This document shows positions 6,218 through 63,235 of a DNA stretch of 64,000 nt, piece after piece (within the stretch, counting starts at the first letter, position 1; every line of letters begins with the position of its first letter). Below the pieces are notes generated by a model. It was given only the letters and a program-made list of their open reading frames with translations, did not search any database and had not been told where the DNA came from. The translations under genes and the position numbers were made by a program. Location: positions 124,001-188,000 of the forward strand of contig CANLRK010000003.1 of assembly GCA_947493535.1 (NCBI GenBank), given 5' to 3'. Source of the stretch: an uncultured Flavobacteriaceae bacterium. Lineage in GTDB: Bacteria; Bacteroidota; Bacteroidia; Flavobacteriales; Flavobacteriaceae.

Positions 6218-7303
6218 TTAGGAAAGAATCTTTTTTACTAAGTCATCCTTTGCTTTTTGATCATCACCAAATAGCCAATTTAGTACATTATCTTCCCACA
6301 TAGCATCTTTTTGGGATTCTGTTACAATGCCTCTATCTGCAGCTAAATCTAATATTTTACCTGGATATGAAGACTGTCTGTCACTTTCCATTTCCCCTAG
6401 CGGATAAGGGTCATCTAAGCCAATTAAAACTTGATTAGCTCCTTGGTTTTTAATTAATAAATCTAATGATCCGGTATCATGCACCAAAGTGTCAAAGAAA
6501 ATATTTTTATGACCTACAGCTCTCCTAGGGTGTTGTTTTCCTTCAAATAAATCAGGTCTACCATCAAAACCTTGAATACGTCTACCTAAATTCATCTGTG
6601 CTAATTGTCCTCCATGAGCAAAACAAACACGCATATTAGGGTATTTTTCGTAGTATCCATTTAGTGTAAGGAAATGATAAGCATCTGCACATTGTGCTAA
6701 CATCCAAATTAAATGAAAGCGCCAAGAAGTATTTTGAAGTTTAATAAACTTCTCTCCATCATAAGGGTGAATTTCTACTGCTAAATTGTACTTGTCTGCC
6801 AACTCAAAAATTGGTTCATTTTCTTCATCAAAAATGCAACGCCAAGTACCTATAGTATCCATATAGTGAGTAGGTAAACATAATAAGCGCATTCCTAACT
6901 CTTTTACACAACGTTCAATTTCCCAACATGCGCCCCTAACAAAACCTGGATGCACAACGAATCCACAAGTAAATTTACTAGGGTTTTCATGTTGAACTTT
7001 AGCATTAAAATCGTTTTGAAAACGCAATGCTTGCTTCATTTCTTCGAGGCGTAAACCATTACCATATAACTGGGAAAGATTTAAGACAACAGCATGGTCT
7101 ATTTTAAAATGTTCCATCCAAGCCAGTTTTTCGTCTAGGAAAAAACTTGAGTCAGTAACAGGTCTGCTCCAATCTTTTTGAAGCATATATTTACGATCTT
7201 TATCTACCCAAAATATTCCTTTGTCTTTCATAAACTGAGGAATTTCCTCTGGATAGGGAAGAAGGTGAGAGTGACCGTTTATTCGTAATTTTCTTTTTTT
7301 CAT
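6218..7303 (-). CDS. Amidohydrolase, probable 2-amino-3-carboxymuconate-6-semialdehyde decarboxylase (ACMSD)
   Basis: NGHSHLLPYPEEIP, FAHGGQLAQMNLGRR, GLDDPYPLGEMES; next to 3-hydroxyanthranilate dioxygenase. Confidence 0.85.
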   Translation of the reverse strand: MKKRKLRINGHSHLLPYPEEIPQFMKDKGIFWVDKDRKYMLQKDWSRPVTDSSFFLDEKLAWMEHFKIDHAVVLNLSQLYGNGLRLEEMKQALRFQNDFNAKVQHENPSKFTCGFVVHPGFVRGACWEIERCVKELGMRLLCLPTHYMDTIGTWRCIFDEENEPIFELADKYNLAVEIHPYDGEKFIKLQNTSWRFHLIWMLAQCADAYHFLTLNGYYEKYPNMRVCFAHGGQLAQMNLGRRIQGFDGRPDLFEGKQHPRRAVGHKNIFFDTLVHDTGSLDLLIKNQGANQVLIGLDDPYPLGEMESDRQSSYPGKILDLAADRGIVTESQKDAMWEDNVLNWLFGDDQKAKDDLVKKILS

Positions 7304-53921: not shown

Positions 53922-55280
53922 TTAATTAAAATAAATACCATTAGGGACAATTCCAGTATTAATAGTTTGAATTGGAGTGTTATCCGTTAAATTAAAAATA
54001 GTCAGTGATCCGTTATTAATACTGTTGTCAATATCAAGAGTGTATAGTCTATCTTCATTAACAGAAATATCATTTGAAATAGTAGTAATAATAGGGGTAA
54101 CAGGTAGTGTGCTTTCTGTTTCGTCCAATGCATAAACAGCATCATTCAGGCTATAGTACAGTGTGCCATTACTATAAGTTAAATTGTTGGGGTGCTCGGT
54201 GGTGGCAAAATCAATAGTACTAAAAGTACCGTCAGCAATTGTATATAAAATCAATTTCCCTGATGTTTCCATACCACTAGTTGCAGGATTTCCTTCTGCT
54301 AAAATCCATAGGTTGTTAGCACTATCAATTACCATATCACTAAGCATATTTCCGGGTAGTGTTACTGTGCTCAAGCTATTATCTGCTGTATTGATAATAC
54401 TCAAGTTATTTACTGAACCACTATGAGCTATATAAATTTTTCCGTTTTTAGCAAGGATTTTTTCTGGTTTTTCATCAACTGCTATTGTTGTTTCAATAGT
54501 ATTGGTGCTTAAATCGATAACTGCAATAAAATCATCAGTAGAAATAGTTGTATCTCCCCAGTTTGTAACGTAGCCCTTAGTCCCAGAAGCAGCAAAATGA
54601 CGAGGAGTGTTAAGTGTTGTACTGATAGTAGATTCTTTTAAAAAAGAATTTCTATTTACAACTATTATTTGATTATCAATAGATGAAACCAGGTAAGCTT
54701 TTGTTCCGTTAAAACCAATAGATTGTAAGCCGCTTCCAATAATTTCAGTATTTACAGTATTGTAAATTTGTTGTTCAGTAACGGTAAAGTCATTATTTAC
54801 ATAGGTAATCGTACTTGTAGGGTTACCGTAATTACTTATTAAAACACTATTTTGAAAAGCATTACTTTCATCGTCAATAATAGTGATTGTTATTGTGTCA
54901 GAATCATCTATATATAGGTTTGAATTAGAAGCGCTAATAACTGTAAGAATAATATTCTCTTGGTCTTCAATGATGGTGTCATCAATTAAATCAATTGTTA
55001 ATGTTGCAGTAAGCTCGCCAGCAGGAATTGTAATATTTTGATTAGGAATGTTATAGTCTACAGCAACTTCTGAAGTTCCAGATAACTCAAAACTGATATT
55101 TATATCGTTAGCAAAGGTTTTAGCAATATGAAAGCTAATGGTTACAATTCCGTCAGCTTCATTAACAGTAGGTGTATCTGTATTAAGATAAAATGTATCT
55201 GGTTGGAAGTGCACGCCTTCATCATCTGTACATGAAAATAGTATAACGAAAAATAAAGATAGGTATAAAAGATGCTTCAT
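53922..55280 (-). CDS. Surface lipoprotein with Calx-beta-like N-terminus and YncE/DUF5074-like beta-propeller; candidate BtuG analogue
   Basis: Lipobox VILFSC followed by acidic TDDEG; TVNEADGIVTISFHIAKTF..DDTIIEDQENIILTVISASNSNLYIDDSDTITITIIDDE (Calx-beta); repeated propeller-like blades; downstream of btuB-like gene on the same strand. Confidence 0.7.
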   Translation of the reverse strand: MKHLLYLSLFFVILFSCTDDEGVHFQPDTFYLNTDTPTVNEADGIVTISFHIAKTFANDINISFELSGTSEVAVDYNIPNQNITIPAGELTATLTIDLIDDTIIEDQENIILTVISASNSNLYIDDSDTITITIIDDESNAFQNSVLISNYGNPTSTITYVNNDFTVTEQQIYNTVNTEIIGSGLQSIGFNGTKAYLVSSIDNQIIVVNRNSFLKESTISTTLNTPRHFAASGTKGYVTNWGDTTISTDDFIAVIDLSTNTIETTIAVDEKPEKILAKNGKIYIAHSGSVNNLSIINTADNSLSTVTLPGNMLSDMVIDSANNLWILAEGNPATSGMETSGKLILYTIADGTFSTIDFATTEHPNNLTYSNGTLYYSLNDAVYALDETESTLPVTPIITTISNDISVNEDRLYTLDIDNSINNGSLTIFNLTDNTPIQTINTGIVPNGIYFN

Positions 55281-55399: not shown

Positions 55400-57340
55400 T
55401 TAAAAATTTAATTTTAACCCTAATCTGTAATTTCTTCCTAAAGTAGAAGCGCCTTGTATTTCTGTATAATCTTCATCAAAAATATTTAACAGAGTCCCAA
55501 ATATTTCTAAGTTATTAGTAAGCTGATGGTTTGCAAAAAAGTTCACCAAATTGTAAGCGTCAACTGTGTCGCCTCCATAAATAAAACGATGGTCTACAAA
55601 TTGGTAGGCAAAGGATAAGTTTGTTTTTTGGTTATAGTTATAGGCAAGCATAGCATTAACCTTGTGTTTAGGAACATTTAAACTCAATGCATCTTCTTCA
55701 AATTGTGTAAAGGTGTAGTTAGCGTTTAACGTTAATGATTTATGAACTGTAACATTGGTTTCAAGTTCTACTCCTTGTGTTTTTACATTATCATCTACAT
55801 TGTAATAAACACCGCCAATCCACCAACCAGATACGCTATCGTAAATATTCAAAAAATCTATTTTATTTTGATCTTCTCTATGAAATACAACTGTACTAAA
55901 TCGATGTTTTTTGTTGTAGTTTAATTCAAAACCGGCTTCACCATTTAAACTTTCTTGAGCATCTAAATCCTTAAATCCGTAATCTGGTGAATATTGTTGG
56001 TAAATAGTAGGTGCAATAAAAGCAGTACTACCGGTAGCGAAAACCTTAGCTTTTAACTTTTCTGTAGCAGTAAAATTATAAGAAGGGTTTATGCTATATA
56101 CAAAATGACTACCAAAGTTGGTGTGATTTGTCATACGAACTCCAGCGTTTACCGTTAAACCAAAATTAGAAAAGTAGGTGAAATTAGCATAAGGATCAAC
56201 AAGGTTGATTTTAGTATTGTCTTTTTCATAATCAGAAACTAAAGTTGTACTCCCGAAAGTAGTGCTAGCCTGCGTTGCTTTTTGTTCTTGAAAATTTATT
56301 CCTATAACTGCCCAAAAGTTTTTATTGAATTTGTATTTGTTGTATAAATCTATAACAATAGAGTTACTAGCGTAGGTTCTTTTTGAACTATCATTTTTAT
56401 TGATTCTATCGGTTTTTGCAATAGATGAATTTAAAACAATACTTCCTTTATTGTATTGGTATGTAGAGGTAATACCATATTGAATATTTTCTGAGTTAGC
56501 TTCATTAAAGCCGTCAGGAGTACCAAAGGAATTATCGTATTGATTTTTAAAATGATTATAGTTCATGTAAGTCCCTAAGTTAAAAGTGTCAGAAAAATGA
56601 TACCCCAATCGGATATTTGCATTTTCTCTTTCAAAAGGATCGTCTTCAAAAACCAATGTGTTATTGGAAGGTCTTGCTGCTGACATGCCTTTTGTGTTTT
56701 CTGTAGAAGCGCCTAAAAAATACGTAAACTTATTAAGTGTACCATTAACGTTTGCGCCTAAGGTAGCGGTGTTTAATTTGTACTTATTGGTTATTACAGA
56801 ACGGTTACTTCCGGCACTCATAATAACATTGGTGTTAGCTTTTTTGTCAAGTGCTTTTTTAGTGGTAATGTTAATAACCCCAGTAGTTGCCCCAGTACCA
56901 TATAAGGTGCTTACACCTCCTTTAATGATTTCTATACTTTTTACGGTGTTGGCGTCTAAAGAACGTAAATCAAATTCACCATTAATGTTTGAAGGGTCAT
57001 TAACTTGAACACCATCAATGAGAATAACAACTTGAAAGTTATTACCTCCTCTTACTCGGTACCCTAAAACAGTACCTGCATTACTTTTCGCACCTGTCAC
57101 TTCAATACCAGAAATTGTATTAATGGTTTGTGCTAAACTTTGCCCTTTAACTTTAGCTAAATCTTCTTCTGAAATTTTGTAGATAACTTTCCCTGATTTT
57201 TCTCTGTTCAGTTTAAACTTTGTGTCTAATACTACTGTTTCTAGTTGTTCAACTGTAGCACTGTCTTGTTGTTTTTCTTGGGCATTTACAGTACATGCCA
57301 AGAAAGCCATACCTAAAAGGCTAAGCACTCTTTTGTTCAT
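55400..57340 (-). CDS. btuB: TonB-dependent receptor, BtuB-like (cobalamin)
   Basis: Plug VKGQSLAQTINTISGIEVTGAKSNAGTVLGYRVRGGNNFQVVILIDGVQVNDPSNINGEFDLRSLDANTVKSIEIIKGGVSTLYGTGATTGVINITTKK; C-terminal NYRLGLKLNF; preceded by cobalamin riboswitch. Confidence 0.85.
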   Translation of the reverse strand: MNKRVLSLLGMAFLACTVNAQEKQQDSATVEQLETVVLDTKFKLNREKSGKVIYKISEEDLAKVKGQSLAQTINTISGIEVTGAKSNAGTVLGYRVRGGNNFQVVILIDGVQVNDPSNINGEFDLRSLDANTVKSIEIIKGGVSTLYGTGATTGVINITTKKALDKKANTNVIMSAGSNRSVITNKYKLNTATLGANVNGTLNKFTYFLGASTENTKGMSAARPSNNTLVFEDDPFERENANIRLGYHFSDTFNLGTYMNYNHFKNQYDNSFGTPDGFNEANSENIQYGITSTYQYNKGSIVLNSSIAKTDRINKNDSSKRTYASNSIVIDLYNKYKFNKNFWAVIGINFQEQKATQASTTFGSTTLVSDYEKDNTKINLVDPYANFTYFSNFGLTVNAGVRMTNHTNFGSHFVYSINPSYNFTATEKLKAKVFATGSTAFIAPTIYQQYSPDYGFKDLDAQESLNGEAGFELNYNKKHRFSTVVFHREDQNKIDFLNIYDSVSGWWIGGVYYNVDDNVKTQGVELETNVTVHKSLTLNANYTFTQFEEDALSLNVPKHKVNAMLAYNYNQKTNLSFAYQFVDHRFIYGGDTVDAYNLVNFFANHQLTNNLEIFGTLLNIFDEDYTEIQGASTLGRNYRLGLKLNF

Positions 57341-57424
57341 TGTCAATAAATTTAATTTCAATACTAATTTGAGTACAGTTACGTTTATGCTTCTATTCCC
57401 GGAAGTGTAAACATTGTACAGAAA

Positions 57425-57605
57425 ATGGCAGGTCTCCTGACTTACTTGTTGTTACGTACCTTCCCGCCAATATTTTTTTGGCAGTGGTTTTTGAAAGCGT
57501 AACACATGGCATCAATAGCCAAAGCATACAGTTGCGGGTACAGTTTAGGACTTACACCTAATTCCCTTTAATTAATACTAAAGTGATTAGTATTAAAACC
57601 AAATT
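57425..57605 (-). promoter_or_regulatory. Cobalamin (B12) riboswitch
   Basis: Minus strand reads AAAGGGAATTAGGTGTAAGTCCTAAACTGTACCCGCAACTG ... AACCACTGCCA..TGGCGGGAAGGTA ... AGTCAGGAGACCTGCC, the conserved B12-element core. Confidence 0.95.
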
Positions 57606-57675
57606 CGGCACGAATATACGTTGTTTTGTAGGTTTAAAGCAACACTTTTTTTAAATATGTTTTCAGAAACACTTT

Positions 57676-58299
57676 TTAAACATGTAACCCACATTCTCTA
57701 TTTTCTAAAACTTTAGTAGGGTCAAAATAGTTAAACTCATTGGGAAGTTGGTTTTCATTTAAGTAGTCATCTAATTGTTTATCTGACCAATGATAAAAAG
57801 GACTAACTTTTAGTACACCATCTTTTGAAAAACTAAAAATATCTAAATTGTCTCTATGGGAAGTTTGCCCTTTTCTTAGGTTTGTAAACCAAACATCCGG
57901 ATTATGTTCTTTCATGGCTCTTTGAAAAGGTTCTAATTTAACTTGCTGAGTAAAAATTTGATGTCTTGGGTCATCAATTTGAGGTATTCCTAAAACTACA
58001 TCACGATGTGCTGTAGTTTGTTGAGGTACATATAATTTTACATTTAGTGATAGCTTATTAATGAGTTCCTGTGCGTGTTTATAAGTGTTAGGAGTGTTAT
58101 AACCAGTATCACACCAAATTACAGTAATATCATTTAGTAAACGAGTTACAGCGTGTAGTATAGCTACTTCATAGGGCCTGAAATTAGTTGTCACAACAGG
58201 TTTAGTTGAAAAACTTAATACCCATGATATAACTTCAAAAGGTGGTTTATTTCTAAAATCATTATTATACTTTTCTAAAAGGTCTTTATTTATATTCAT
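57676..58299 (-). CDS. cysH: Phosphoadenosine phosphosulfate reductase family protein
   Basis: VLSFSTKPVVTTNFRPYEVAILHAVTRL; VWFTNLRKGQTSHRDNLD; KVSPFYHWSDKQLDDYL; C-terminal RECGLHV. Confidence 0.9.
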   Translation of the reverse strand: MNINKDLLEKYNNDFRNKPPFEVISWVLSFSTKPVVTTNFRPYEVAILHAVTRLLNDITVIWCDTGYNTPNTYKHAQELINKLSLNVKLYVPQQTTAHRDVVLGIPQIDDPRHQIFTQQVKLEPFQRAMKEHNPDVWFTNLRKGQTSHRDNLDIFSFSKDGVLKVSPFYHWSDKQLDDYLNENQLPNEFNYFDPTKVLENRECGLHV

Positions 58300-58302
58300 T
58301 GC

Positions 58303-58566
58303 TTATTGTTTTATTTTTCCCCATGTTATTTGATTCCACATACGCTCATGAAAGAAGTATAATACCATTTTTGAAATCAATTCAATTGCACCTATTGAAA
58401 AAGCTAAACTTAAGGTGCCTGTGATTAACCATGAAATAACTATAGTGTCAATTGTACCAATAGTTCGCCAACTAATAGTTTTTATTATACTGCGTTTAAG
58501 ATTTTCATTGTTTTTGTGTTGAACTTTTTTAGCAGAATTGTTAGTAAAAATGGAATCTAGTAACAT
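58303..58566 (-). CDS. DUF2061 domain-containing membrane protein
   Basis: SIIKTISWRTIGTIDTIVISWLITGTLSLAFSIGAIELISKMVLYFFHERMWNQI. Confidence 0.88.
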   Translation of the reverse strand: MLLDSIFTNNSAKKVQHKNNENLKRSIIKTISWRTIGTIDTIVISWLITGTLSLAFSIGAIELISKMVLYFFHERMWNQITWGKIKQ

Positions 58567-58584
58567 AAATTATTTTAATACTAT

Positions 58585-58618
58585 AATCCTATCGGATTAA
58601 TAGGGTTTTGCAAATGTA
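58585..58618 (-). promoter_or_regulatory. Promoter -7 box plus palindromic candidate operator of DUF2061-cysH
   Basis: Minus strand TACATTTG(C) (58611-58618) followed by palindrome AATCCGATAGGATT (58585-58598). Confidence 0.55.
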
Positions 58619-58691
58619 GAAATATTTTATGCTTAAAAAACACTTTTTGAGTTAAATTTTAAAAGAGTAGAAAATAGTATTAATTACAGTA

Positions 58692-59099
58692 CTAAGTGAT
58701 ATCTGATAAGGTGTTGTTTTTTAACACCTTAAGTGTGTTGTCACGCACTTGAATCATTAACTTGTGTACACTACAGGCTTTTTCATCTGGACAATCATCA
58801 CATTTTTCATAAAAATTTAAGCTTACACAAGGCAGCATGGCTATAGGTCCTTCAAGAGCTCTAATAACATCAGTCATTAAAATTTTAGAAGGATTTTCTA
58901 ATAAATAATATCCTCCATTTTTTCCTTTTTTTGATCCTAAAAAACCAGCCTTTCTTAAGGTAAGTAATATACTTTCTAAAAATTTATGTGAGATGTTTTC
59001 ACTCTTAGAAATTACGGCAATAGGTACAGGAATATTTTCCTTTTGTCTAGCTATAAACGCAAGCGCCTTTAATCCGTATTTGGTTTTTTTAGAAAGCAT
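58692..59099 (-). CDS. Rrf2 family transcriptional regulator
   Basis: MLSKKTKYGLKALAFIARQKENIPVPIAVISKSENISHKFLESILLTLRKAGFLGSKKGKNGGYYLLENP. Confidence 0.92.
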   Translation of the reverse strand: MLSKKTKYGLKALAFIARQKENIPVPIAVISKSENISHKFLESILLTLRKAGFLGSKKGKNGGYYLLENPSKILMTDVIRALEGPIAMLPCVSLNFYEKCDDCPDEKACSVHKLMIQVRDNTLKVLKNNTLSDIT

Positions 59100-59400: not shown

Positions 59401-60129
59401 ATGTTGAATAAAGCGGTTTTTAATTGGAGTGGAGGGAAAGATAGCGCCTTAGCGTTGCACTATATACAGCAACAAAAAGAATTTGAAATTCGCACCTTAC
59501 TAACTTCAATTAATGATACTTATAATAGGATTTCTATGCATGGTGTACGTGCCGAGTTACTACATAATCAAGCAAGTGCTCTAGAAATACCACTTACTGA
59601 GTTGCGTTTACCAGAAAACCCAACAATGGAGGAGTACAATGTTTTGTTATCAGAATTAAATGCCGACTTAAAATTGCAAGGTATTACACATAGTATTTTT
59701 GGTGATATTTTTTTAGAAGATTTAAGGAAGTATCGTGAAGAACAATTGACTAAAGTTGGTATAAAGGCTCATTTTCCTTTATGGAAAAGAAATACAAAGG
59801 AGTTGATACATGAGTTTATTGATTTAGGTTTTAAAACAATTGTGGTATGTACTAAAGCTGAATTGTTAGGGAAAGATTTTGTTGGTGAAGTAATTACGAA
59901 AGATTTTTTAAAAGAACTACCTAAAAATGTAGACCCTTGTGGTGAAAATGGCGAGTTTCATACCTTTGTTTATGACGGGCCAATATTTAAGAAAGCTATA
60001 AGTTTTACAGTAGGCGATAAAATATATCGCACTTATGAGGCACCAAAGAAAAAAGAAGATGCTTGCTTTTCAACTACATCAACACTGAAAGAAATAGGGT
60101 TTCACTTTTGTGATTTAGTACCAAAATAA
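59401..60129 (+). CDS. DPH6-like (diphthine--ammonia ligase-related) PP-loop ATP pyrophosphatase
   Basis: FNWSGGKDSALALHYIQ (PP-loop SGGKDS); MHGVRAELLHNQASALEIPL; FGDIFLEDLRKYREEQLTKVGIKAHFPLWKRNTKEL; DPCGENGEFHTFVYDGPIF. Confidence 0.9.
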   Translation: MLNKAVFNWSGGKDSALALHYIQQQKEFEIRTLLTSINDTYNRISMHGVRAELLHNQASALEIPLTELRLPENPTMEEYNVLLSELNADLKLQGITHSIFGDIFLEDLRKYREEQLTKVGIKAHFPLWKRNTKELIHEFIDLGFKTIVVCTKAELLGKDFVGEVITKDFLKELPKNVDPCGENGEFHTFVYDGPIFKKAISFTVGDKIYRTYEAPKKKEDACFSTTSTLKEIGFHFCDLVPK

Positions 60130-60138
60130 ATAAAAACA

Positions 60139-61275
60139 ATGTTTAAAAAAATAAGCATAATAGTATTAGTTGCTTTCATATTTGTAGCATGTAAAAAACA
60201 AAACCAGGTAGAAAATCACGAAATTCAACACGGTGTTGAATTTTCTACAACATACGCTACAGGGTTTAAAGTTGTTAATTATAATAGCTATACCACGATT
60301 CATATAAAATCACCTTGGCCAAATTCCGATAAAAGCTTCACTTATTTATTAGTTGATAAAGGCAAAAATGTACCTGAACATATAGCACATGATGCATTGA
60401 TTCATGTGCCTGTTGAAAAAGTAATAGTTACTTCTACCACACATATTCCAATATTAGAAGCTTTAAATGAATTGGATAAATTAGTGGGTTTTCCGAATAC
60501 AAATTTTATTTCATCAGAAAAGGCAAGAGATCGTATAGGAAAAGGTATAATAAAAGAACTTGGAGAAAATGAAGCTCTAAATACGGAGCTAGTATTAGAT
60601 TTAGAGCCAGATGTAGTAATTGGTTTTGCTATTAACGGAAATAATAAAACATTTAATACATTACAAAAATCAGGTATACCTGTGGTTTACGATGCAGCAT
60701 GGATAGAAAAACATGCCTTGGGAAGAGCAGAGTGGATTAAATTTTTTGGATGCTTATTTAAAAAAGAAGAAAAAGCCAACCAGGTATTTAATCAAATAGT
60801 AAGTAATTATGCAATAGCAAAAAATAGTGTTGCTGATATAGTTGATAAACCATCAGTATTGGCAGGATCGATGTTTAAAGATATTTGGCATGTGCCTTAC
60901 GGGAATTCTTGGGCAGCTCAATTTATAGCTGATGCTGGAGGAAATTACCTTTGGGGCAATACCTTAGGGTCAGGAAGCATAGCCTTAAATATTGAATCGG
61001 TACTAACCAAAGGGAAACAAGCTGATTTTTGGTTTACTTTAGGAAGTGCAACTACAAAACAAGAATTTAAGGAAGGTAATAAACATTACATACAATTTGA
61101 TGCTTTTATAAATAATAACGTATATATAGCAAACAAAAAAGGAGCAACAGGAGGATTATTTTTTTATGAGCTGGGACCTAATAGACCTGATTTAATTTTA
61201 AAAGATTTAATTAAAATTATGCACCCCGATAGGTTGCCTAACCATGAGTTGTTTTTTTATCAACAGTTACAATAG
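60139..61275 (+). CDS. ABC transporter substrate-binding lipoprotein, BtuF-like
   Basis: Lipobox FVACKKQ; KVIVTSTTHIPILEALNELDKLVGFPN; LDLEPDVVIGFAINGN; LAGSMFKDIWHVPYGNSWAAQFIADAGGNYLW. Confidence 0.85.
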   Translation: MFKKISIIVLVAFIFVACKKQNQVENHEIQHGVEFSTTYATGFKVVNYNSYTTIHIKSPWPNSDKSFTYLLVDKGKNVPEHIAHDALIHVPVEKVIVTSTTHIPILEALNELDKLVGFPNTNFISSEKARDRIGKGIIKELGENEALNTELVLDLEPDVVIGFAINGNNKTFNTLQKSGIPVVYDAAWIEKHALGRAEWIKFFGCLFKKEEKANQVFNQIVSNYAIAKNSVADIVDKPSVLAGSMFKDIWHVPYGNSWAAQFIADAGGNYLWGNTLGSGSIALNIESVLTKGKQADFWFTLGSATTKQEFKEGNKHYIQFDAFINNNVYIANKKGATGGLFFYELGPNRPDLILKDLIKIMHPDRLPNHELFFYQQLQ

Positions 61276-61408
61276 CGATTATGTAGCATAGTTTTCAAAA
61301 AAAAGAAATTACTCGAAAACAAAACAGACATATATGAAAATTATTGTTTGACATGACAACTAGTTTTAATTTGTATTTTTACTCAAAAATTAAGCCTTAA
61401 ATATCAAT

Positions 61409-62440
61409 TTGGAAAACAAAAAATCATATTCATTAATACTTGTACTACTTATAGTTGTTACCTTATTTTTTGTGTTTTTAAACATTAGTTTAGGGTCTGT
61501 TCATATTCCTTTTTCAGAGGTGATAGGTGTGATGCTTGACACTACTGAAGTAAAACAATCTTGGGAATATATTATTTTAAATTATAGGTTGCCTAAAGCA
61601 ATTACAGCTGTAATTGTAGGATCAGGCTTAGGGATTTCTGGGCTGCTAATGCAAACATTATTTCGTAACCCTTTAGCTGGACCATATGTATTAGGCTTAA
61701 GTTCAGGGGCTAGCTTAGGTGTTGCAACTGTGGTGCTAGGAGCTTCCTTTTTTTCGGCTACTTTTGCTTCGTTATTAATAAGTCAATGGAGTTTGGTTAT
61801 TGCGGCTAGTATTGGTAGTTTTTTGGTACTACTAGCCGTAGTTATTGTAAGTTCTCGAGTTAAAGATACTATGGCTATATTGATAATTGGGTTAATGTTT
61901 GCTAGTGTTTCGGCAGCTATTGTAAGTGTATTATCATACTTTTCTTCCGCAGAACAATTACAACGATATATTTTTTGGAGCTTTGGTAGCCTAGGTAATT
62001 TAGCTTGGGAAGAGTTGTTTGTTTTAATATTGTTATTTGGTTTGGGGGTATTAGCTACTATTATATCTATTAAACCATTAAATGCCTTATTGTTGGGGGA
62101 CAACTATGCTAGTAGTTTGGGGGTAAACTTAAAAAAATCTCGATTTATAATTATACTAGCTACAAGTTTTTTTGCTGGAAGTATAACAGCATTTGCTGGG
62201 CCAATTGCTTTTATTGGTTTAGCTGTGCCGCACTTAACAAAATTATTATTTAACACCTCTAACCATAAAATTCTATTGCCCGCAGTAGCACTTTCTGGAG
62301 CAATATTGATGTTGTTTTGTGATAGTGTTTCTCAATTACCCATGAGTGAATATACCTTGCCAATTAATGCAGTAACGTCTTTAGTAGGAGCACCAGTGGT
62401 AATATGGTTGTTGGTACGTAAAAAGAAACTGTTTGTGTAA
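61409..62440 (+). CDS. FecCD/BtuC-like iron-siderophore/cobalamin ABC transporter permease
   Basis: LNYRLPKAITAVIVGSGLGISGLLMQTLFRNPLAGPYVLGLSSGASLG; FAGPIAFIGLAVPHLTKLLF; TTG start. Confidence 0.9.
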   Translation: MENKKSYSLILVLLIVVTLFFVFLNISLGSVHIPFSEVIGVMLDTTEVKQSWEYIILNYRLPKAITAVIVGSGLGISGLLMQTLFRNPLAGPYVLGLSSGASLGVATVVLGASFFSATFASLLISQWSLVIAASIGSFLVLLAVVIVSSRVKDTMAILIIGLMFASVSAAIVSVLSYFSSAEQLQRYIFWSFGSLGNLAWEELFVLILLFGLGVLATIISIKPLNALLLGDNYASSLGVNLKKSRFIIILATSFFAGSITAFAGPIAFIGLAVPHLTKLLFNTSNHKILLPAVALSGAILMLFCDSVSQLPMSEYTLPINAVTSLVGAPVVIWLLVRKKKLFV

Positions 62441-62443
62441 CTT

Positions 62444-63235
62444 ATGAAGAAAAAAAATATCAATACAGTTTTAGAAGTAAAAAACTTAGCAATTGGTTAT
62501 CAAACTAAAAAGAAAGAAATACGCGTTGCTGAAAAAATCAATTTTGCACTAAAACAAGGTGAGTTGGTAGGGTTAATTGGTGCTAATGGTATAGGGAAAT
62601 CAACATTATTAAAAACAATAACTAATGCAGAGAAGTGTTTGGAAGGAGATGTGTATATTAATAATGAATCACTAAATTCTATAACAAGTATTAATCTAGC
62701 GAAAGAAATTAGTGTCGTGTTGACCGATAATATTTCACATACAAATTTATCGGTACAAGAACTTATTGCTTTAGGGAGACAGCCATATACCAATTGGATA
62801 GGCACACTTACTGAAGCCGATAAATTAAAAACCAAAGAAGCAATAGCGGCAATTCAAATTACTGATTTAGTAGATAAAAAATGCTATGAGTTAAGTGATG
62901 GGCAATTACAAAAAGTAATGCTAGCTAGGGCATTGGCACAGGATACAGCTATAATTGTATTAGATGAACCTACTACGCATTTAGATTTGTACCATAAAGT
63001 ATCGGTACTTAAATTATTGCAAAAGTTAGCTAAGGAAACTCAAAAAACAATTTTATTTTCAACACACGAAATAAATGTAACCCTATCACTTTGCGATAAA
63101 ATTATTTTAATGAAAGAAAACCAAACTTATTTTGGTACACCAAAAGAGTTAATAGCTCAGCAGGCATTTGATAAACTATTCCCTGATGATTTGGTCTTTT
63201 TTGATGAGTTGAGCGGTGCTTTTAAAATAAAATAG
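62444..63235 (+). CDS. ABC transporter ATP-binding protein, BtuD/FecE-like
   Basis: GLIGANGIGKSTLLKTITN (Walker A), LSDGQLQKVMLARALAQDTAIIVLDEPTTHLDL (signature, Walker B). Confidence 0.93.
   Translation: MKKKNINTVLEVKNLAIGYQTKKKEIRVAEKINFALKQGELVGLIGANGIGKSTLLKTITNAEKCLEGDVYINNESLNSITSINLAKEISVVLTDNISHTNLSVQELIALGRQPYTNWIGTLTEADKLKTKEAIAAIQITDLVDKKCYELSDGQLQKVMLARALAQDTAIIVLDEPTTHLDLYHKVSVLKLLQKLAKETQKTILFSTHEINVTLSLCDKIILMKENQTYFGTPKELIAQQAFDKLFPDDLVFFDELSGAFKIK

Follow-up and report, generated by a model that had tools for sequence, protein, structure and literature searches.

Why should an uncultured bacterium of the Flavobacteriaceae carry, directly ahead of the genes for a putative cobalamin (vitamin B12) importer, a relative of the diphthamide synthase Dph6, an enzyme whose ancestral substrate is the protein elongation factor 2 (EF2), when bacteria are without diphthamide (de Crecy-Lagard et al., 2012; PMC3541065)? 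The gene lies in a stretch of 64,000 nucleotides of contig CANLRK010000003.1 (assembly GCA_947493535.1), referred to here as the window, and encodes a DUF71/COG2102 PP-loop protein followed by btuF-, btuC- and btuD-like genes (Table 1); the genome is Flavobacteriaceae-type and assembled in 37 contigs (2.30 Mb, 99.63% complete). A role of some kind in B12 use is very likely for this protein. More tentatively, and at somewhat below even confidence, comparative sequence data suggest that the group of genes to which it belongs, termed A-type below, encodes cytosolic ATP-using enzymes that would act after B12 import on the complete corrinoid, via carboxylate adenylation and ammonia. The sequence-only reading of this DNA had called a COG2102/Dph6-type protein with the SGGKDS motif, nine nucleotides upstream of a btuF-like lipoprotein gene and then btuC- and btuD-like genes, and had expected a substrate other than EF2; the coordinates and gene calls proved right, and the expectation is supported.

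The window protein almost certainly belongs to DUF71-B12, the subfamily that was set apart from Dph6 when COG2102 was divided in 2012, and shares with it the PF01902 domain, the SGGKDS motif, adjacency to btuFCD and the signature ENGEF/YH, which replaces the EGGE/DxE of Dph6 (PMC3541065) and is present here as GENGEFH (residues 181-187). Among 36 aligned relatives, C180, G181, E182, G184, E185 and H187 are invariant, and N183 and F186 vary. No Pfam domain besides PF01902 was matched in the protein, so the CbiZ domain (PF01955) is not found, and no gene fusion that could serve as a clue occurs among 205 matches, the longest of which are N-terminal extensions of open reading frames.

The association of DUF71 genes with B12 is not new: 75 of 102 DUF71-B12 genes were reported to adjoin B12 transport genes and 18 to adjoin cbiB, and the subfamily was proposed to take the place of bacterial CbiZ in the salvage of pseudo-B12, by a reaction that was called unknown (PMC3541065). 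A 2016 review still has it as 'function unknown, B12 salvage' (PMC5041015). Since 2012 the subfamily has carried a name and a pathway assigned by prediction, and neither a demonstrated reaction nor any experimental follow-up was found in the searchable open papers. What is added here is a split into A- and B-type genes, which was not found described in the literature searched, riboswitch control in relatives, and the independence of the A-type from cobyric-acid chemistry. In contrast to the subfamily as described (PMC3541065), the window's A-type member sits in a genome in which profile searches gave no match to CbiB, CobS, CobU, CbiZ or the GATase_3 corrinoid amidotransferases; here and below, a gene is called absent on the basis of profile searches of assemblies, not of closed genomes.

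A- and B-type genes and their linkage to B12

The comparison sampled 121 genomes of Flavobacteriaceae, roughly one for each genus, together with 198 genomes of Bacteroidota, and about 15 kb was read around each match; the tree holds 80 A-type genes, 49 from Flavobacteriaceae and 31 from elsewhere. In this tree the DUF71 proteins split at full support into the A-type, which includes the window protein, and the B-type. Differences between A, B and Dph6 fall in the Cys/His signature and in the loop after strand 97-99, which reads GDIFLEDLRxYRE in A and GDIDLxxHRxWE in B, and the two types presumably differ in substrate. All six Flavobacteriaceae carriers of a B-type gene have CobU and CobS (p=1e-6; 121 genomes), with B lying between cobC/cobS and btuF. 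Exceptions to this rule are L002 and L231, which carry B beside btuB and btuF with no cob cluster in view. The co-occurrence tests given here make no correction for kinship, and against a high background (106-115 of 121 genomes) they are supportive only; weak CobU matches (20-26 bits, in open reading frames of about 450-520 residues) were left out of the counts.

The two types stand side by side in G054 (locus L138), the other genome of the window's genus, in the order DUF71A-btuF-cobU-DUF71B-cobT-cobS-cobC-btuC-btuD. The insert (L138 8916-12462) corresponds to the short gap between btuF and btuC in the window, where A is kept without the cob block and B. A would have stayed when the cob block and B were lost jointly from the window lineage, if the change ran in this direction; alignment of the window and G054 revealed no clean scar of a deletion in this gap.

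B12 loci hold 30 of the 80 A-type genes (18 of 49 in Flavobacteriaceae and 12 of 31 elsewhere), and two others adjoin a fused mutase. Because the B12-locus label changes eight times on the tree under parsimony, the 30 are neither 30 independent events nor one. Outside the Flavobacteriaceae, all 12 lie downstream of, and co-directional with, a cobalamin riboswitch (RF00174), and they are spread over five families; by rough estimate, with 1-2 riboswitches per 3-5 Mb genome, chance alone would account for less than one of the 31. The linkage of DUF71 to B12 exceeds chance. One of these loci, L246, has the gene order of the window, with a riboswitch at 6689-6904, DUF71 from 7001 (53% identity) and then btuF, btuC and btuD, and in L234 the order is riboswitch-DUF6580-DUF71 with overlapping genes. 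The distribution across genomes agrees: every one of the 50 A-type carriers in the Flavobacteriaceae combines a B12 riboswitch with an adenosyltransferase and a B12-dependent methylmalonyl-CoA-mutase-type enzyme, 48 of the 50 have a BtuF of the window's type, and none of the 10 genomes without a riboswitch has an A-type gene (Fisher p=0.005 for the riboswitch, 121 genomes). Plasmid-borne relatives in other phyla (Meiothermus, Cetobacterium and Priestia) were found to have no B12 neighbors.

In gene content and riboswitch the window matches the BtuB-BtuFCD import loci of Bacteroidota with RF00174, but its riboswitch governs the btuB side only, and DUF71 heads the btuFCD side. The sequence-only reading had made the DUF71 unit divergent from a B12 riboswitch unit; the riboswitch is real, but an rrf2-DUF2061-cysH block intervenes, and no cobalamin riboswitch was found ahead of DUF71 itself by RF00174 search of the window's genome. 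In G054 only 48 nucleotides separate the riboswitch from DUF71. The same reading had coupled the protein to cobamide import and proposed counting B12 neighbours across the subfamily: the link does recur, including under cobalamin riboswitches, but the many A-type genes that lie elsewhere (see below) speak against a tight coupling.

Two further genes were observed in these loci. DUF6580 (PF20221), a membrane-like protein of about 196 residues (L227:4653-5240, L234:7627-8214, L244:8565-9149 and L247:5380-6051), is found repeatedly in operons with a cobalamin riboswitch, where it accompanies btuB, a btuF-like gene and DUF71 and where no btuC or btuD is nearby; it is a candidate for a B12 permease or another part of the transport system. 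In one riboswitch operon, a SIR2-family gene (L227:6295-6987) separates DUF71 from the btuF-like gene.

The proposed reaction and the evidence against it

In the mechanism that we propose, a cobamide would be imported and then handled in the cytosol by the PP-loop ATP pyrophosphatase, being kept complete and not taken apart. Dph6 is understood to activate a carboxylate by adenylation, and with the chemistry of such relatives a carboxylate would be adenylated by ATP to an AMP-intermediate, with release of pyrophosphate and attack by ammonia. The most likely substrates would be cobamides with missing side-chain amides, a defect that a cell limited to import would have no other means of mending. 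That an amide is formed on a corrinoid is, by analogy with these enzymes, possible but doubtful. The idea goes back to the sequence-only reading, which had inferred an ATP-dependent amidation such as the salvage of corrinoids with free carboxylates, or other corrinoid remodelling. As a single proposal, re-amidation of the imported cobamide is the simplest, because the useful corrinoid carboxylates of an import-only cell would be those left by lost side-chain amides; the specific claim that A-type proteins are cobamide-repair ligases, re-amidating hydrolysed side chains of complete cobamides after import with ATP and free ammonia, is in itself rather unlikely.

In favor of ATP-dependent action on a complete corrinoid are the invariant ATP-site residues and the predicted fold, which is nearest Dph6 and then other carbonyl-activating PP-loop enzymes. 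In a Foldseek search with the AlphaFold2 model (predicted local distance difference test score, pLDDT, 92.5), the best PDB matches were the Dph6-type structures 2d13, 3rjz and 3rk1 (3rjz, E 3.5e-15), and NcsA, YcfA and LarE-like PP-loop enzymes ranked next, behind a wide gap.

A number of observations weigh against this proposal. The Glu that Dph6 presumably uses is replaced by His, and the ligase chemistry may have changed with it (PMC3541065); no report was found of natural deamidated cobamides needed by such bacteria. Roughly half of the B12-importing genomes are without the gene. Within Flavobacteriaceae the 18 B12-linked cases come mostly from one clade and the window's genus, that is, from few independent events. 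Finally, for 34 of the 80 A-type genes neither B12 genes nor aroQ (type II dehydroquinase) nor a mutase gene are among the neighbors, and 14 lie directly behind aroQ.

The solitary genes, the importers without the gene and the aroQ tandem are also what recommends a function unrelated to B12, in which DUF71 would be a mobile accessory gene that often lands in B12 loci, and aroQ would point to another small molecule. The tandem occurs in 14 Flavobacteriaceae genera (L139, L162, L164, L171-L175 and L177-L182), with gaps that are mostly 15 nucleotides or less or small overlaps. However, A-type genes are confined to genomes that have the riboswitch, the adenosyltransferase and the mutase, they lie downstream of riboswitches in five families, and the tandem is confined to one A-type clade (17 rows, 14 of them with aroQ; support 96), which is consistent with a single event, although its tight spacing may still have a functional meaning. 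A function outside B12 use is on balance unlikely.

We would give little weight, too, to the idea that the substrate is a protein of B12 use, such as a transporter, mutase or chaperone, modified by amidation or another side-chain derivatization in the way that Dph6 acts on EF2. The ancestral protein substrate speaks for it, as do the mutase-type neighbors of some relatives and the MeaB neighbor of the B-type gene in L231, but there is no constant partner, the neighbors varying between btuFCD, btuB-DUF6580-btuF, mutase and none, and the EF2-binding residues are reported not to be kept in DUF71-B12 (PMC3541065). The mutase-type neighbors are fused B12-binding/MeaB/mutase (IcmF-like) proteins, found in Chryseobacterium-type and f2 genomes (L028 2410-5784 and others, L221 7984-11376 and L222 2296-5757).

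Genome content and the remaining alternatives

The published prediction is that DUF71-B12 replaces CbiZ, converting adenosyl-pseudo-B12 to cobyric acid (or performing another step of pseudo-B12 salvage), from which CbiB and the nucleotide-loop enzymes would rebuild the preferred cobamide; it was drawn from the anti-correlation of CbiZ and DUF71 and from clustering with btuCDF and cbiB (PMC3541065). The cobyric-acid route cannot be completed in the window genome, because the enzymes needed to rebuild the cobamide were not detected, and amidation fits the genome content better for the same reason, there being no match to CbiB, CobS or CobU. All three are likewise missing from 40 of the 50 A-type Flavobacteriaceae genomes, and the A-type is distributed independently of CbiB (3 of 50 genomes versus 4 of 71 without the A-type; p=1). 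CbiZ was found by profile search in none of the 121 genomes, so that there is nothing to replace and the anti-correlation cannot operate in Flavobacteriaceae. Furthermore, CbiZ and an intact DUF71 gene are both missing from three of the seven genomes with CbiB (no DUF71 in G064, broken remnants in G013 and G107). Strong matches to GATase_3 (PF07685, taken as those above 100 bits) are confined to the seven CbiB genomes, the weak matches in most genomes being other glutamine amidotransferase-like open reading frames. A missing adenosyltransferase was considered as an explanation and rejected, PF01923 being present in the window genome and in 115 of the 121.

The co-distribution with CbiB and complementarity to CbiZ expected of DUF71-B12 are thus not seen here, a result that touches the predicted function and not the sequence membership in the subfamily. 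The same place in cobamide salvage has been proposed for the CbiZ and CbiR cobamide remodelling hydrolases (PF01955; PMC7733943), but their fold is unrelated, and they need CbiB and the nucleotide-loop enzymes, absent from the window genome, to finish the pathway. In this organism a route of the CbiZ type is probably not followed, and as an account of the A-type the CbiZ-like function is improbable; it may still hold for the B-type, whose six Flavobacteriaceae genes all adjoin the cobU/cobS cluster.

Another ATP-driven chemistry on the corrinoid could involve Cys180 and His187, for example a thiolation or cobalt-ligand chemistry as in PP-loop thiolases. This pair is invariant in both A- and B-type proteins and is replaced by Ala and Glu in Pyrococcus Dph6, and NcsA and YcfA are among the structural matches. 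Against it, there is no second conserved Cys set or iron-sulfur site, C150 alone of the other cysteines being near-invariant in the A-type (Ser in the B-type), and no thio-corrinoid is known; we consider it quite improbable. That the window protein is a bona fide Dph6 can be practically dismissed, since, despite the shared Pfam family, PP-loop and fold (template-modelling score 0.69-0.72 on the query, 24-27% identity to PF0828 and the structures 3rjz, 3rk1 and 2d13), it scores 98.3 bits against a cut-off of 197.3 for the Dph6 equivalog TIGR03679, has His for the catalytic Glu188 and Cys180 for Ala, carries a C-terminal extension and belongs to a bacterium, a host without diphthamide (PMC3541065).

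The locus in the window

Table 1. Coordinates of the DUF71 gene, its motifs and the surrounding features in the window.
Feature	Position	Strand	Evidence
DUF71/COG2102 PP-loop protein, A-type of DUF71-B12, 242 residues, ATG start, intact	59401..60129	+	PF01902 (Diphthami_syn_2), 141.9 bits (cut-off 23.2)
PP-loop SGGKDS, residues 10-15, ATP-binding motif	59428..59445	+	S10, G12 and K13 invariant among 36 aligned relatives
CGENGEFH, residues 180-187, subfamily signature; His where Dph6 has Glu188	59938..59961	+	Sequence, alignment
btuF-like substrate-binding protein, lipoprotein-like N-terminus	60139..61275	+	PF01497, 89.8 bits
Gap between btuF and btuC, 133 nucleotides	61276..61408	+	Open reading frame coordinates
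btuC-like FecCD permease	61409..62440	+	PF01032, 262.8 bits
btuD-like ATP-binding cassette (ABC) ATPase	62444..63235	+	PF00005, 105.4 bits
rrf2-DUF2061-cysH block between riboswitch/btuB unit and DUF71-btuFCD unit	57676-59099	-	Profile matches
Cobalamin riboswitch of the divergent btuB unit	57410..57618	-	RF00174, 96.4 bits
btuB-like TonB-dependent receptor	55400..57361	-	Plug domain PF07715; TIGR01779 184 bits, below cut-off
DUF5074/Calx-beta lipoprotein-like protein, downstream of btuB	53922..55280	-	PF16819

The FecCD permease, the ABC ATPase and the PF01497 binding protein make up the domain set of a BtuFCD importer, which is complete in the window. The best NCBIfam model for the permease is BtuC (PRK03784), at 209.5 bits under its 334-bit cut-off, and btuF homologues in the closest other genera directly adjoin a cobalamin riboswitch, which supports B12 as the probable cargo of the window's btuFCD. 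Spacing is tight between DUF71 and btuF (stop at 60129 and ATG at 60139, 9 nucleotides) and between btuC and btuD (3 nucleotides), and despite the gap between btuF and btuC the four genes probably share a single transcript. No exact consensus match of the Bacteroidetes-type promoter was found upstream of DUF71, and the matches across the window are not above chance; a sigma-70 and terminator scan was uninformative. Relatives of the DUF5074 protein also flank DUF71 in other B12 loci (L151, L152, L158, L169 and L176).

The comparison also cautions against the database name 'diphthine--ammonia ligase' for these bacterial genes. Since the A-type appears to work in cells that import only complete cobamides, biochemical work is better directed at intact corrinoids than at cobyric-acid chemistry. 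If the repair of cobamides by re-amidation is true, corrinoids would be amidated by enzymes other than the glutamine-dependent CbiA and CbiP, in bacteria that are unable to build corrinoids themselves.

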